A DNA stretch of 64,000 nt from Thermococcus stetteri (lineage in GTDB: Archaea; Methanobacteriota_B; Thermococci; Thermococcales; Thermococcaceae): contig NZ_JAGGKB010000006.1 of NCBI RefSeq assembly GCF_017873335.1, positions 1 through 64,000 on the forward strand. The letters are read 5' to 3'. A program made the position numbers and the translations under genes. The first letter of the stretch is position 1, and the number at the start of each line of letters is the position of its first letter. Positions 1 to 43,096 of this stretch are shown piece after piece. The notes under the pieces are model-generated. The model was not told the DNA's origin, made no database searches, and saw nothing but the letters and a program-made list of their open reading frames with translations.

Positions 1-738
1 TTTAGGAAACCTTTAGGAAACCTTTCAGCGGGAATTGACTTGGGAGTGAACAATTTAATGGCCGTTTACGTCGAGAATGGAGAAAGCTTCCTCGTGAATG
101 GAAGGCCTTTGAAGTCAATAGCCTTCTACTGGCAAAAGAGAATAGCTGAGTATCAGTCTAAGCTCAATAATTCTGGCTGTAAGAAGAGTAGGAAGCTCTC
201 CAGAATGCACAAGAAGGCCAAACTTCAGGCTAAGCACTACATTAATACGGCGGTAAGACAAACCGTTGAGAAGCTCTATTGTCTCGGTGTTTCAAGGATT
301 GTGGTTGGCTATCCTAAAGGAATTGCCAGAAACTCTGATAAGGGCAGGAAGCAGAATTTCATTCTTTCCCACGTTTGGCGGTTTAATTACGTTATTAAAC
401 GTTTAACAGAGGTTGCTGAAGAGTATGGTATTTCCGTTGTTGTCGTTGGTGAGGCTTTCACTTCTCAAACCTGCCCTCTCTGTGGCCAGCGCCACCCTAA
501 TGGAAGAATTTTTAGAGGTTTGTTTAAGTGCCACAGGGAGGGCGTTGTCATGAATGCGGATTTAGTTGGTGCTTTTAACATTTTGAAGAAGGCAATAAAA
601 ACCATAACCCCGAGCCTCCCCGCTTTAGCGGGGGGTAGGGGTAATTGGCCGGAGACCCGGCCAGAGGGGTCGAAGACCCGTTTTAACTTGGGTCTGAATG
701 GAACCCCTCAAACCTTCCCGTCATTGGCGAGGGGTTAA
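1..738 (+). CDS. tnpB: TnpB, RNA-guided nuclease of an IS200/IS605-type element (5' end outside window)
   Basis: The reading frame is open from base 1, so the N-terminus lies outside the window. RuvC-like catalytic residues are visible: Asp in GIDLG (codon 37-39), Glu in GEAF (codon 451-453) and Asp in NADLVGAFN (codon 559-561). A zinc-finger segment CPLCG...FKCHREG lies between the last two. TnpB proteins are RNA-guided DNA endonucleases and ancestors of Cas12. No tnpA is visible; it may lie upstream. The C-terminal tail after the last Asp is low-complexity and overlaps the structured right end. It looks intact as far as seen, but activity cannot be judged without the N-terminus. Confidence 0.92.
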   Translation, partial: FRKPLGNLSAGIDLGVNNLMAVYVENGESFLVNGRPLKSIAFYWQKRIAEYQSKLNNSGCKKSRKLSRMHKKAKLQAKHYINTAVRQTVEKLYCLGVSRIVVGYPKGIARNSDKGRKQNFILSHVWRFNYVIKRLTEVAEEYGISVVVVGEAFTSQTCPLCGQRHPNGRIFRGLFKCHREGVVMNADLVGAFNILKKAIKTITPSLPALAGGRGNWPETRPEGSKTRFNLGLNGTPQTFPSLARG

Positions 739-779
739 AACGTTGGAACCCTCGCCCTTCAGGGCGGGGAGGAGGTCAG
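601..779 (+). ncRNA. omegaRNA-like scaffold and right end of the tnpB element
   Basis: The last codons of tnpB and the 40 bases after it fold into stems: CCCCGC/GCGGGG near 620, GGCCGG/CCGGCC near 648-662, a long-range stem GGCGAGGG (726-733) with CCCTCGCC (749-756), and a terminal hairpin CGCCC-TTCA-GGGCG (753-766). The block ends in GGAGGTCAG at 771-779. In IS605 elements such 3' ends give the reRNA/omegaRNA that guides TnpB; the bases just after 779 would be the guide. The same architecture recurs at 40715-40879 with compensatory changes. The RNA 5' end is not defined. Confidence 0.6.
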
Positions 780-39653: not shown

Positions 39654-40517
39654 GTGGGGGCAACGAACTCCAACTATCCCTACCTGAGGGAGGTGGACTC
39701 TTATTTTGCCCCATATCTGAATCTAACCGCCGTTAAAATGGCCAACTCAATGATCCATAAGCAGCTGCTGGCCTACGACGCTATTCCGGAGTTTGCACTT
39801 CATTTGGATCCCGAGAACTTCTCCAAGATCATGAACTGGAGTGACATGAGAGAAATAAGACCATGGTTGAACCCAGAGAAACTCAACGAGTTTGCATCAG
39901 CTGTGGCGGAGTTTGCCAACGAAACGGACTTCTGGGGGTTCTACAACAGTCACAGGGAGTTCTACAGAAAAACCCTGGAGACGTTTGTGAAGGAGAACGG
40001 ATACATATCCAACCTGGTTAAAATTGAGGAAGAATTCTTCGGAGAGAACGCCTCCGCCTGGTACATCGAGCCCCAGCTGGTTTTCTGCTGCCACGGTTTT
40101 GGATACCACATGAACACCACAAACGGTATGGCGGTTTACGCTTTTCTTGGGCTCAGTTACGTGTCAGGTGGAATACCCCACGTTCAGGCTACTGCCAGCT
40201 CCTCGAGCTTCCTCGCCCACGAGTTCGCCCACAGCTTTGTCAATCCCGCCGTTGACAGGCACTACGATCTCTTTAGGCCCTATGAGTCTCTTTTTGATCC
40301 AGTATCTCAGGAACTCAGAAAGATGGCGTACACGAACTTCAGGATAATGCTCTACGAGACGCTTGTGAGGGCCTTTGAGGCGTATTACTTAAACGTGACG
40401 GTGGGCCCCAGTGCGGCGGAGGAGAAGCTACGCCAGAACGAAAGAGTCTTCTACTTTATTAGGGACGTTTACATTTTTCTTCTGAAAGCTTCGCCCTTTA
40501 GGGCGGGGATGCAGTAA
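39654..40517 (+). pseudogene. truncated DUF4932-like metalloprotease gene
   Basis: The protein has the zinc-protease motif HEFAH (near residue 189) and a DUF4932-like layout (REVDSYFAPYLN..., PEFALHLDPENF, SHREFYRKTLE, NPAVDRHYDLF). GTG 39654 has no ribosome binding site, and the coding-like frame continues upstream to a TGA at 39618 with no start, so the N-terminus is missing. The last ten residues (KASPFRAGMQ) are read from the left end of the adjacent IS605-like element, so the C-terminus was also cut off. Function is probably lost. Confidence 0.65.
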
Positions 40518-40879
40518 ACCGCCCAACAGCCTTTCAACAGTCAAAACCCCTTTAAACTTTGGAGTGTAGTAGGGTCTCGAAGAGACCACTCAAAACAACC
40601 CGATGAGATGAGGGGTTTCATCATGTCCTCCTGCGGGCTGGCAGGCGTCCTTCGAAATACTGCCCGTTTGGGCAGTCAAGAACTGGAGTTCGGTCTCTAA
40701 GCGATAACCTCAATCCGGCTTTGGCCGGTAGGGGTAACGGGCACAAGACCGTGCCCTCGGGCCGAACCGAAACCGGCAACGGGAGTAGGGAATGAGTGAG
40801 TGCCCGTAAACCGAACCGCCCGCTGGCGAGGGGGTTAACTCGTTGGAACCCTCGCCGTTCACGGCGGGAAGGAGGTCAG
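40485..40879 (+). mobile_element. solo IS200/IS605-derived element without tnpA or tnpB
   Basis: The left end has hairpin CGCCC-TTTA-GGGCG (40492-40505). The right end (CGTTGGAACCCTCG, then hairpin CGCCG-TTCA-CGGCG at 40853-40866, then GGAGGTCAG at 40871-40879) matches the right end of the tnpB element at 741-779. Inside are more hairpins (GGTCTC/GAGACC at 40573-40587, CTGCCC/GGGCAG at 40660-40676) and no transposase frame. It is about 395 bases long and inserted in the 3' end of the DUF4932-like gene. Such elements could be moved in trans by TnpA. Confidence 0.75.
40715..40879 (+). ncRNA. omegaRNA-like fold retained in the solo element
   Basis: The block aligns with 620-779 of the tnpB element: hairpin CCGGC-TTT-GGCCGG followed by GTAGGGGTAA, stem GGGCAC/GTGCCC, long stem GGCGAGGG/CCCTCGCC and the terminal hairpin. 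Primary sequence differs but stems are preserved by paired changes. The bases right after 40879 would act as a guide. Expression is not shown. Confidence 0.5.
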
Positions 40880-41038
40880 TCCTGGCAGTCTGTGGGAGTC
40901 TCTAAACGTCCCACCCACTATCTTTCTCCTCTCTTGTGTCACTGTGTTCCCCCAACTAACCAATTGTGTCCCAATTGGATACCTTTGGTTGTAGAAAAAT
41001 ATTTATTCTCCGGTCGCACAAATATTGTGGTGTCAATT

Positions 41039-43096
41039 ATGAAGTGGGATGCGTCGGTTCTCAAGGTCGCCCCGGAGGAGTTCCTAGTTGAAGGGCTCTC
41101 TGAGCTTCTACGAAGGGCAGGCTTCAGGGAGGTTGGAAGGGAGTACAAAAGAATTGGGAATGCCAGAATTGCTATGGTTATGGGTGAAAGGGAGAACATC
41201 TTCACTCAAAAGGAAACAATGGTCATAGCCGTTGCGAGAGGAGCTATTAAAGGGGGAGACCTCCAAAAGCTCCTCTCTGATTATGGGGACGGCGTTGTCC
41301 TTATCCCCTTTGATGGCCTCGATGGGACCATCGAGGGGGTGAGAGTTCTAACTCCCGAATGGCTGGCTGAGGTCTTCACCAGGTATGAAATAAAGCCTCC
41401 ACGAACAATCCTTGAGAAGTTCCTTCCAATAGAAGAGGAGGTAGATTTCCTGAGAGAGTTCGTCCTCGATGGTCCCCTTCTCACCCAGATCTCCCCTGCA
41501 AAGCTTATTGAGAGGGCTAAAAAACGGCTCTCCTACCGGTATGGGGTTGACCCTGAGTCCATCCAGCCAAAAAAGCTTGCCCTAAGCCTTAGGGAAGTGT
41601 TTGTTTTCACATGGGTTTCAGGGGAGAGCACTAAACGGGCTCTTGTTGAGGAGAAAAGGGTAGTTCTCGACACCGATTCAGAAAATCTAAAAGGTCTGGC
41701 AATGAGGGTTCTGCTTGAGGACGTTGCTACTGTTCAGGCATCAGAGCTCGTGTTTGAAAAAATGGATAACCCCGAAGAGGCGCTTGTGAGGGAGGCCACA
41801 AGAGCTGGGATCCTTGACTTAAAGATCGTTGAACAGAGAAAGGCCTACATCCCAACGAAGGCGACGCTTGAGCTCTCTATCGGCGATAATGAGGCAACTG
41901 TGAGATTCAACCTCGAGAACGGTAGCGTTCAGCTCAAAGTGAATCCAATGAGCGAGGATGAGCTCCTTAGGAAATTCTCAGAGGTGGTAAGGAAAGAAAC
42001 AGGTGAGGAACTGTCCCTGACCAATAAGGTCAGCAAGGGGAAAGTTCTCTTGGTTCGTGGAAGGACTGAGAGGTACGTCGTTGAGGGTGAGATAAACCGG
42101 TACAGCGGAAAGATAGTCCTCTTCAGAAAGGCACTTAGTGAGGGCGTTATACTCTCCATAATCCTGGGTCTTTATCCAGACGGTGAGGTAGTGAGTGTGG
42201 AGAAGAGAGGGGACTCGGTTATTGCAGATGTGCTCACGGAGAAAGCCCTAACAGTCCTGAGGATTGACCCCGAAACGGGCAAAAGCAACGAAGTGAAGGC
42301 CCTAATCCACCCCTCCCAGGTACTGAGAACGATCCTGAAGGAAGAAAACCTGCCGTTTAAAGTGGGCGACTTTTCCCTGAAGGTGGAGGGTGTTCTCTGG
42401 CACAGAAACGTCAGGGCCGTGTTTGAGGGGAAGGGGGTAAGTGTGAGAATAGAGTACAACGGTGAGACCGGAGGAGTGCTGGAAAAAGAACTTCGGTTAT
42501 CTAGAGAAGCAGCGGTCCAGATTGTGCTCGCCAAGTATAGAGGGTTTAAGGTCATACTGGAAGAGGAGAGGGATGGAGCCTTTTACTTTACCCTAGAAGG
42601 AGAAAGGCACATCGTTAAACTCAAAGCCCTTCCAGACGGCAAGGTGGAAGAGGTAGACCGCTTCCTAAGGAAAGAGGCCGTCGAAGAAATAGCCCTGAGA
42701 AAACTCTCTGAAATTGATGAGAGCCCCATCGTTGAGAGCCTGTCCCTTCGCGACAACTGGGAGATCGAGTTCAGCGGCTCAAGAAGGTTTGGCAGGATGG
42801 TCCTCCACAGAACCACCGGAGAGGTTTTAGACCTTGAATACCAGTACCTGGAGAGCTTCTTGGCTAAGCTCTTTAAGGACCTTGTGGAAGACGAATACCA
42901 GGACAGGGTCGAGGTGGAGTGGGTTCTACACAACCTCGAAGAAGGGGTCGCGGGGGTAAAGGGCTACGGGACAAAGGGGACATACTTCGCTAAGTTCGAT
43001 ACCCATACTGGGGAGGTCATTTCGAGGGATTTCGTGCCGAAGGGAATAACCTCAAAGATCCGCCTAGCCCAGGTTGAGAGCAGATACCGCCCATAA
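41039..43096 (+). CDS. large unrecognised protein with REase-like N-terminus and PepSY-like repeats
   Basis: I recognise no family for the 685-residue protein. Residues 1-110 look like an alpha/beta domain of the restriction-endonuclease type (NARIAMVMGE, MVIAVARG, LTPEWLAEVF). From about residue 330 there are repeated beta units ending in turn motifs RYSGKIV, DPETGKS, NGETGGV, HRTTGEV and DTHTGEV, as in PepSY-type repeats. There is no signal peptide. ATG 41039 is chosen: a TATA box lies at 40996-41005 and GTGGTG just upstream; the longer frame runs into the IS element. A small membrane-protein gene follows by 11 bases. Confidence 0.75.
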   Translation: MKWDASVLKVAPEEFLVEGLSELLRRAGFREVGREYKRIGNARIAMVMGERENIFTQKETMVIAVARGAIKGGDLQKLLSDYGDGVVLIPFDGLDGTIEGVRVLTPEWLAEVFTRYEIKPPRTILEKFLPIEEEVDFLREFVLDGPLLTQISPAKLIERAKKRLSYRYGVDPESIQPKKLALSLREVFVFTWVSGESTKRALVEEKRVVLDTDSENLKGLAMRVLLEDVATVQASELVFEKMDNPEEALVREATRAGILDLKIVEQRKAYIPTKATLELSIGDNEATVRFNLENGSVQLKVNPMSEDELLRKFSEVVRKETGEELSLTNKVSKGKVLLVRGRTERYVVEGEINRYSGKIVLFRKALSEGVILSIILGLYPDGEVVSVEKRGDSVIADVLTEKALTVLRIDPETGKSNEVKALIHPSQVLRTILKEENLPFKVGDFSLKVEGVLWHRNVRAVFEGKGVSVRIEYNGETGGVLEKELRLSREAAVQIVLAKYRGFKVILEEERDGAFYFTLEGERHIVKLKALPDGKVEEVDRFLRKEAVEEIALRKLSEIDESPIVESLSLRDNWEIEFSGSRRFGRMVLHRTTGEVLDLEYQYLESFLAKLFKDLVEDEYQDRVEVEWVLHNLEEGVAGVKGYGTKGTYFAKFDTHTGEVISRDFVPKGITSKIRLAQVESRYRP

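Follow-up and report, generated by a model that had tools for sequence, protein, structure and literature searches.

A tnpB-less IS200/IS605-type element with a conserved omegaRNA-like fold in Thermococcus stetteri and other Thermococcaceae

The window, that is, the whole analyzed stretch of 64,000 nt, covers positions 1 to 64,000 of contig NZ_JAGGKB010000006.1 (forward strand) of Thermococcus stetteri (assembly GCF_017873335.1). A 407-bp element lies at 40473-40879. The element, its surroundings and the tnpB-bearing element used for comparison are annotated as follows.

39654-40517, +: DUF4932 gene, the frame of which now stops within the element
40468-40472, +: TTTAC target and presumed transposon-adjacent motif (left flank; 4-base counts over 45 copies)
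40473-40879, +: whole element, 407 bp (10 full copies in the same genome; boundaries set by 45 copies whose flanks are unrelated)
40485-40508, +: left end with AAAG (40485-40488) and left-end hairpin (40489-40508), common to tnpB elements (pair counts)
40849-40869, +: right-end hairpin, an alternative fold holding the compensatory pair 40857/40862 (sequence; established IS200/IS605 anatomy)
1-779, +: 3' part of the tnpB-bearing comparison element (PF01385 match; TnpB structures in PDB)

A mechanically called open reading frame (40796-43096) begins within the element and reads through it; the real gene start is more likely near 41039.

Ten full copies are present in the T. stetteri genome; identity is 86-100% for nine of them and 73% for the tenth. 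In the genus survey, 40 of 61 genomes match the element, many of them at its ends alone. An alignment of 45 distinct full-length copies runs from a left tip ending in TTTTTCTTYTGAAAGCC to a right tip GGAGGTCAG. Nearly all of the interior is common to the copies and the flanks are unrelated. The sequence-only reading had set the left boundary at 40485; the 45 copies, with their T-rich left tip, shift it 12 nt upstream to 40473. The four bases preceding the element are TTAC in 28/45 and TGAC in 6/45 copies (together 34/45), and insertion occurs 3' of this short target, which is not duplicated. The 3' flanks vary, with 58 different ones among 60 copies. The first ~45-65 nt are about 80-98% identical to the left ends of tnpB elements, and the last ~55-177 nt of the tnpB-less copies align to tnpB and tnpA-tnpB elements. 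As the reading had claimed, no transposase frame is left: neither a TnpB nor a TnpA frame overlaps the window element, and the tnpB-less elements from other genera likewise contain none. Shared hairpin ends, the target rule and the lack of a transposase gene place the element among the non-autonomous IS200/IS605 elements (MITE/PATE). A pattern scan of genome contigs gave matches in Thermococci/Thermococcales MAGs only, and no match was found among the plasmids, phages and viral contigs searched.

An empty site, TTTAC directly followed by AGTCAAAGG, is present in a related genome (G028) for the right flank of one T. stetteri copy (L010, G000:C2:355302-355695), whereas none was found for the window copy, where homologous genes lose the match ~70 bp ahead of the insertion. 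Over 400 bp, the right flank of L010 matches the G028 site (L202, G028:C4), where TTTAC precedes, with 89% identity. On the left, L010 is flanked by the end of a conserved gene, which in G004 and other genomes continues as GTGAC followed by CTAAAA, the native site. The L010 element is thus located at a rearrangement junction, its two flanks deriving from separate insertion sites. Each half-site is known in uninterrupted form, and in L010 the two are joined via one element, which suggests, as the simplest account, recombination between two element copies. Another copy (L003, G000:C2:78593-78983) interrupts a MoxR-type ATPase gene; compared with typical MoxR proteins, some residues are apparently missing at the junction of the joined frame. 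L131 (about 154-202, -) and L024 (1501-1533) contain micro-elements of ~48 nt that pass directly from the left-end hairpin to the right-end tail.

The RNA features of the window copy and the comparison element are listed below.

580-779, +: omegaRNA of the comparison tnpB element (model match, E 6.1e-38)
40543-40556, +: BRE/TATA-like motif AAAACCCCTTTAAA of archaeal type (conservation in 45 copies)
40573-40680, +: 5' RNA region, tnpB-less copies only (hairpin covariation; presence/absence by locus)
40573-40587, 40597-40617, 40630-40645 (rearranged in the window copy) and 40659-40676, +: hairpins of the 5' region
40681-40879, +: omegaRNA-like domain (covariance model match, 197.9 bits, E 1.6e-59; pair counts)
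40692-40696/40873-40877, +: helix H1
40707-40711/40731-40735, +: helix H2
40715-40718/40725-40728, +: helix H3
40739-40744/40751-40756, +: helix H4
40758-40762/40802-40806, +: helix H5
40773-40775/40780-40782, +: helix H7
40816-40820/40863-40867, +: helix H8
40825-40832/40849-40856, +: helix H9, GGCGAGGG/CCCTCGCC
40880-40895, +: presumed guide, first ~16 nt of the right flank (variable 3' flanks; analogy with ISDra2)

A covariance model, R1, was built from 60 tnpB-less 3' ends only. It finds all 10 copies of the T. stetteri genome (E 1e-51 to 1e-65) and also 13 tnpB-type copies of the same genome, 12 at E 1e-33 to 1e-39 and a decayed tnpA-tnpB copy at E 1e-17. These matches always span model positions 1-193, and the tnpB copies end at the same 3' end. 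By BLAST, a relative (L083) aligns over its last 177 nt to the T. stetteri tnpB elements with 74.6% identity (E 3e-24). The 3' ~195 nt of the element are homologous in sequence and fold to TnpB omegaRNA/reRNA.

Base for base, 741-779 of the tnpB element and 40841-40879 had been read as differing by paired changes alone. The two stretches are colinear and C757>G40857 with G762>C40862 is a paired change, but the unpaired G769>A40869 is found as well. The H9 stem is identical in both elements and the GGCC-type stem becomes GGGCAC/GTGCCC in H4, both as described. In IS200/IS605 anatomy the right-end hairpin would be read by TnpA as single-stranded DNA. The pair 40857/40862 is compensatory but also lies within this DNA hairpin, so that the internal helices are the better evidence for an RNA.

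In the 60 tnpB-less copies, 95.4% of 2527 helix cells are paired versus 90.3% in shuffles, and covariation is 0.186 versus 0.095 +/- 0.004. Changes on both sides are found in 14 pairs (shuffles 8.2) and 112 cells (shuffles 38.6). None of 500 shuffles reached the observed value in any measure, and pairing falls to 34-55% when partners are slid by 1-3 columns. The tnpB set, aligned to R1, shows 93.2% pairing and a covariation of 0.230 versus 0.113, values from an alignment that leans towards the structure of the model. The same nine helices carry compensatory changes in both sets. The proposed selection on structure is thereby borne out, with covariation above shuffles and a genome-wide excess of paired substitutions. 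An all-against-all covariation test on 43 full-length rows, run against a tree-based null, found significance for just two pairs, of which the one in H4 is 95% canonical and the second only 53%; the test had too little power and was replaced by the tests of the named structure.

In H2-H7, G-U pairs outnumber A-C (87 versus 25), which points to the + strand as the RNA. H8-H9 show no such excess (26 versus 48), and the alternative DNA hairpin overlaps there. H1 closes the domain, pairing its beginning with the bases just ahead of the guide. Its cells are paired to 97% in tnpB-less copies versus 74% in tnpB elements, where H1 overlaps Lys/Arg codons. The predicted transcript of the window copy folds better than shuffles (z -4.4). 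Helix pairing is equally intact in genomes with full, broken or absent TnpA. Selection on the fold of the tnpB-less element as RNA is strongly supported. Similarity of the 3' ends to tnpB ends is not higher within a genome than between genomes (p 0.3), and hence nothing points to an adjustment to the TnpB of the host genome.

Upstream of the omegaRNA-like domain, the columns of the promoter-like motif contain an invariant AAA in the 45 copies, with neighbors conserved at 82-100%, followed by ~11 variable columns. The TATA-to-start distance in T. kodakarensis is ~23 bp (PMC4247193). On this basis, a transcription start would be expected at about 40576-40580, within or beside hairpin A. Covariation in the 5' region is clear for hairpins A, D and E, in weak excess for C and lacking for B. 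A predicted pairing of the promoter-like motif with GGGGTTT shows no covariation and was dropped. The hairpin B motif CCCGATGAGATGA (40597-40617) is also found in the Rfam HgcC consensus; the Rfam match of the window aligns elsewhere only. Among the loci fetched from other genera, the 5' region is found in every tnpB-less locus and in no tnpB locus. L232 has both; there, the tnpB match adjoins the tnpB-less element and is not located within it. In total, the 5' region was found in 35/94 genomes and 5/6 genera. It is an additional conserved RNA part of the tnpB-less elements.

R1 matches 75/94 genomes and all six of six genera. An RNA tree was computed from 135 RNAs: 91 tnpB-less ones from five genera and 44 tnpB-borne ones from four genera. 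The two groups fall on two sides of one branch in all bootstrap trees (100/100 support) for this sample, the tnpB-less copies of which were collected by similarity to the window copy, so that other kinds may be missed. Identity between genomes is ~70-80%, yet pairing remains at 95%. The tnpB-less RNAs are an ancient, separate, family-wide lineage and not recent relics. With the single split and the fixed 5' architecture, their general origin cannot lie in recent deletions that arose repeatedly from tnpB elements. The observation made at the single locus is confirmed, with the corrections given above, and holds more generally, for a lineage that spans the family and has the 5' region as an additional RNA part. 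One tnpB element (L130, G029:C2:148080) has an omegaRNA with the tnpB-less-type motif GAAACTGGTGACGGGAGTAGG and is possibly a hybrid of both lineages. A literature search found no paper describing the tnpB-less family, and the lineage and its 5' region appear to be undescribed. The general concepts of non-autonomous IS605 elements and of standalone omegaRNAs are already known.

Genome G012 of the survey, which we take to be T. kodakarensis KOD1, contains strong R1 matches at three tnpB omegaRNAs (251, 425 and 743 kb) and one tnpB-less copy (1474 kb). The latter (L090) is 5'-truncated and located inside the start of a gene, with the omegaRNA part intact. In T. kodakarensis, HgcC1-3 are sense transcripts within the transposase genes TK0298, TK0495 and TK0850, while HgcC4/5 are not associated with transposase genes and HgcC4 is located in the 5' region of TK1679 (PMC4247193). 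The same study has been cited for ncRNAs of tnpB-encoding transposons (PMC8612924). The matches in G012 stand in the order expected for HgcC1-4, from which we infer that HgcC4 is the 5'-truncated tnpB-less copy. Given this coincidence, one solo copy is probably transcribed. The start site of HgcC4 is that of the host gene and is therefore uninformative as to a promoter of the element itself. R1 did not recover HgcC5, and a fifth match in G012 is weak. At threshold, an Rfam search of the window element returned no matching family and seven related loci no match; HgcC (RF00062) reached 29.9 bits in the window element, under the 50-bit gathering threshold. A group I intron or IStron was rejected, as Rfam gave no group I intron match up to E 5.

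The T. stetteri genome contains eleven Pfam TnpB matches, including at least one intact TnpB (436 aa); the family match is backed by PDB matches to TnpB and Cas12f structures. Several tnpB copies are located at contig ends (window 1-779; L014; L064), where the assembly probably broke at repeats. A single TnpA is found in the genome (L066, G000:C4:58431-58781); it has an internal stop and split frames and adjoins a broken tnpB. Among the genus genomes, and with their relatedness ignored throughout, TnpA is found in 11/19 genomes with near-full copies versus 4/42 others (p 1e-4), the median number of TnpB is 8 versus 1, and TnpB presence is weakly linked (18/19 versus 32/42, p 0.08). In many genomes with full copies, TnpA was not detected; together with the broken TnpA of T. 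stetteri, this indicates that not all copies are mobile now. One genome (86% complete) has element copies and an intact TnpA, and a TnpB match is absent.

The element is probably a non-autonomous IS200/IS605 transposon that has an RNA as its sole product, is moved by TnpA in trans and is retained via TnpB in trans, with its flank as guide. TnpA (Y1) of another element would recognize the hairpins at both ends when the DNA is single-stranded, and would move the element to sites after TTAC/TGAC. Transcription from an own or a host promoter would proceed through the right end into the flank and yield an omegaRNA guided by the flanking sequence. TnpB made elsewhere in the cell would bind this RNA and cut the empty donor site left by excision, and repair would copy the element back. 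The element would parasitize both proteins of its relatives and pay for the RNA alone. The sequence-only reading had offered mobility in trans and an RNA for TnpB as alternatives. The evidence fits both, and they are not alternatives: mobility in trans agrees with the end features, the target and the co-occurrence with TnpA, and a guide RNA that serves a TnpB from another locus agrees with the internal omegaRNA helices, the promoter-like motif and the variability of the 3' flank. As the protein genes are lost and the guide-RNA fold is kept across the family, mover and cutter are probably borrowed from other elements, and the use of TnpB in trans would be the most economical mechanism. It is possible, though doubtful, that the element further represents a standalone TnpB guide-RNA lineage, apart from the nuclease since before the Thermococcaceae genera split, in which the 5' region adds a function not shared by ordinary omegaRNAs; the RNA might, for instance, outcompete, inhibit or redirect TnpB from autonomous relatives.

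Alternatively, the RNA could act as a decoy or regulator that binds or competes for TnpB, the 5' region blocking or redirecting the nuclease and thereby protecting the cell or favoring the small element. In the loci checked, this region is on all tnpB-less copies and never part of a tnpB element, and the RNA has evolved apart from the tnpB RNAs on a long branch. However, a pure decoy would have no need of the helices, of the 3' end as far as the guide or of the target motif, and all of these are retained. No signature of a lost cutting function was found, and we consider this role unlikely. It is quite unlikely that the RNA works independently of TnpB, as an ncRNA used by host or element that inherited the omegaRNA fold and functions through its strongly conserved, covarying 5' region. 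Persistence in genomes without TnpA, and in one without detected TnpB, would agree with such a role. The 5'-truncated copy L090, however, keeps the omegaRNA part intact, and variable copy numbers and sites between genomes, with some copies within genes, are as expected of a mobile element and not of a host gene.

A structure kept solely as DNA, with hairpins that serve single-strand transposition by TnpA and an incidental RNA, is very unlikely. TnpA does read end hairpins in IS200/IS605, the C/G swap of the sequence-only reading lies within one, and near-full copies co-occur with TnpA. But H2-H7 and the 5' hairpins A, D and E are far from the ends and covary too, the fold is common to omegaRNA and equally intact without TnpA, and the promoter-like motif is conserved. 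Neither this account nor that of a relic is well supported: a functionless, decaying or repeatedly generated deletion product of tnpB elements, suggested by the decayed tnpA-tnpB copy of the genome and by truncated copies elsewhere, is highly improbable and, as a general account, refuted by the single split from all sampled tnpB RNAs and a fixed architecture that includes a region lacking in tnpB elements, with 95% pairing at ~70-80% identity; individual truncated copies are relics.

If the favored reading of a transposon served in trans by TnpA and TnpB is true, the guide RNA and not the nuclease gene would be what a minimal transposon must keep in order to survive, making the element a parasite of a parasite. 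Part of the old orphan RNA family HgcC would be explained as tnpB-borne and tnpB-less omegaRNAs, and TnpB guide scaffolds that evolved free of coding constraint would be on offer. A clean test is possible in T. kodakarensis, a genetically tractable archaeon, since solo RNA, TnpB and TnpA are at separate loci and can be removed singly.

Among known systems, HEARO/IscB omegaRNAs and standalone omegaRNAs are guide-RNA elements without a linked nuclease gene; the nuclease family is a different one there. HgcC RNA (RF00062) has a weak Rfam match in the window and the string CCCGAUGAGAUGA in common with the element, but most of the element's fold is missing from the Rfam model. PATEs and IS200/IS605 MITEs, which have reportedly been counted in studies of Haloquadratum and Halanaerobium, are likewise protein-less, with IS200/IS605-type ends, and presumably moved in trans. 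Classical PATEs are described mainly by their ends, whereas a ~300-nt internal structured RNA is conserved in the tnpB-less element. The TnpB omegaRNA/reRNA of IS200/IS605 (ISDra2, PMC8612924; archaeal sotRNAs) has the same position at the right end, also has a flank-derived 3' end (a guide of ~16 nt in ISDra2, PMC8612924) and a target motif identical to the insertion motif, and the tnpB omegaRNAs of the T. stetteri genome share the nine-helix fold. In contrast to these, the tnpB-less element has no tnpB, its RNA is freed from the overlap with the tnpB frame and forms its own lineage, and it adds the 5' region and a promoter-like motif at its left end.
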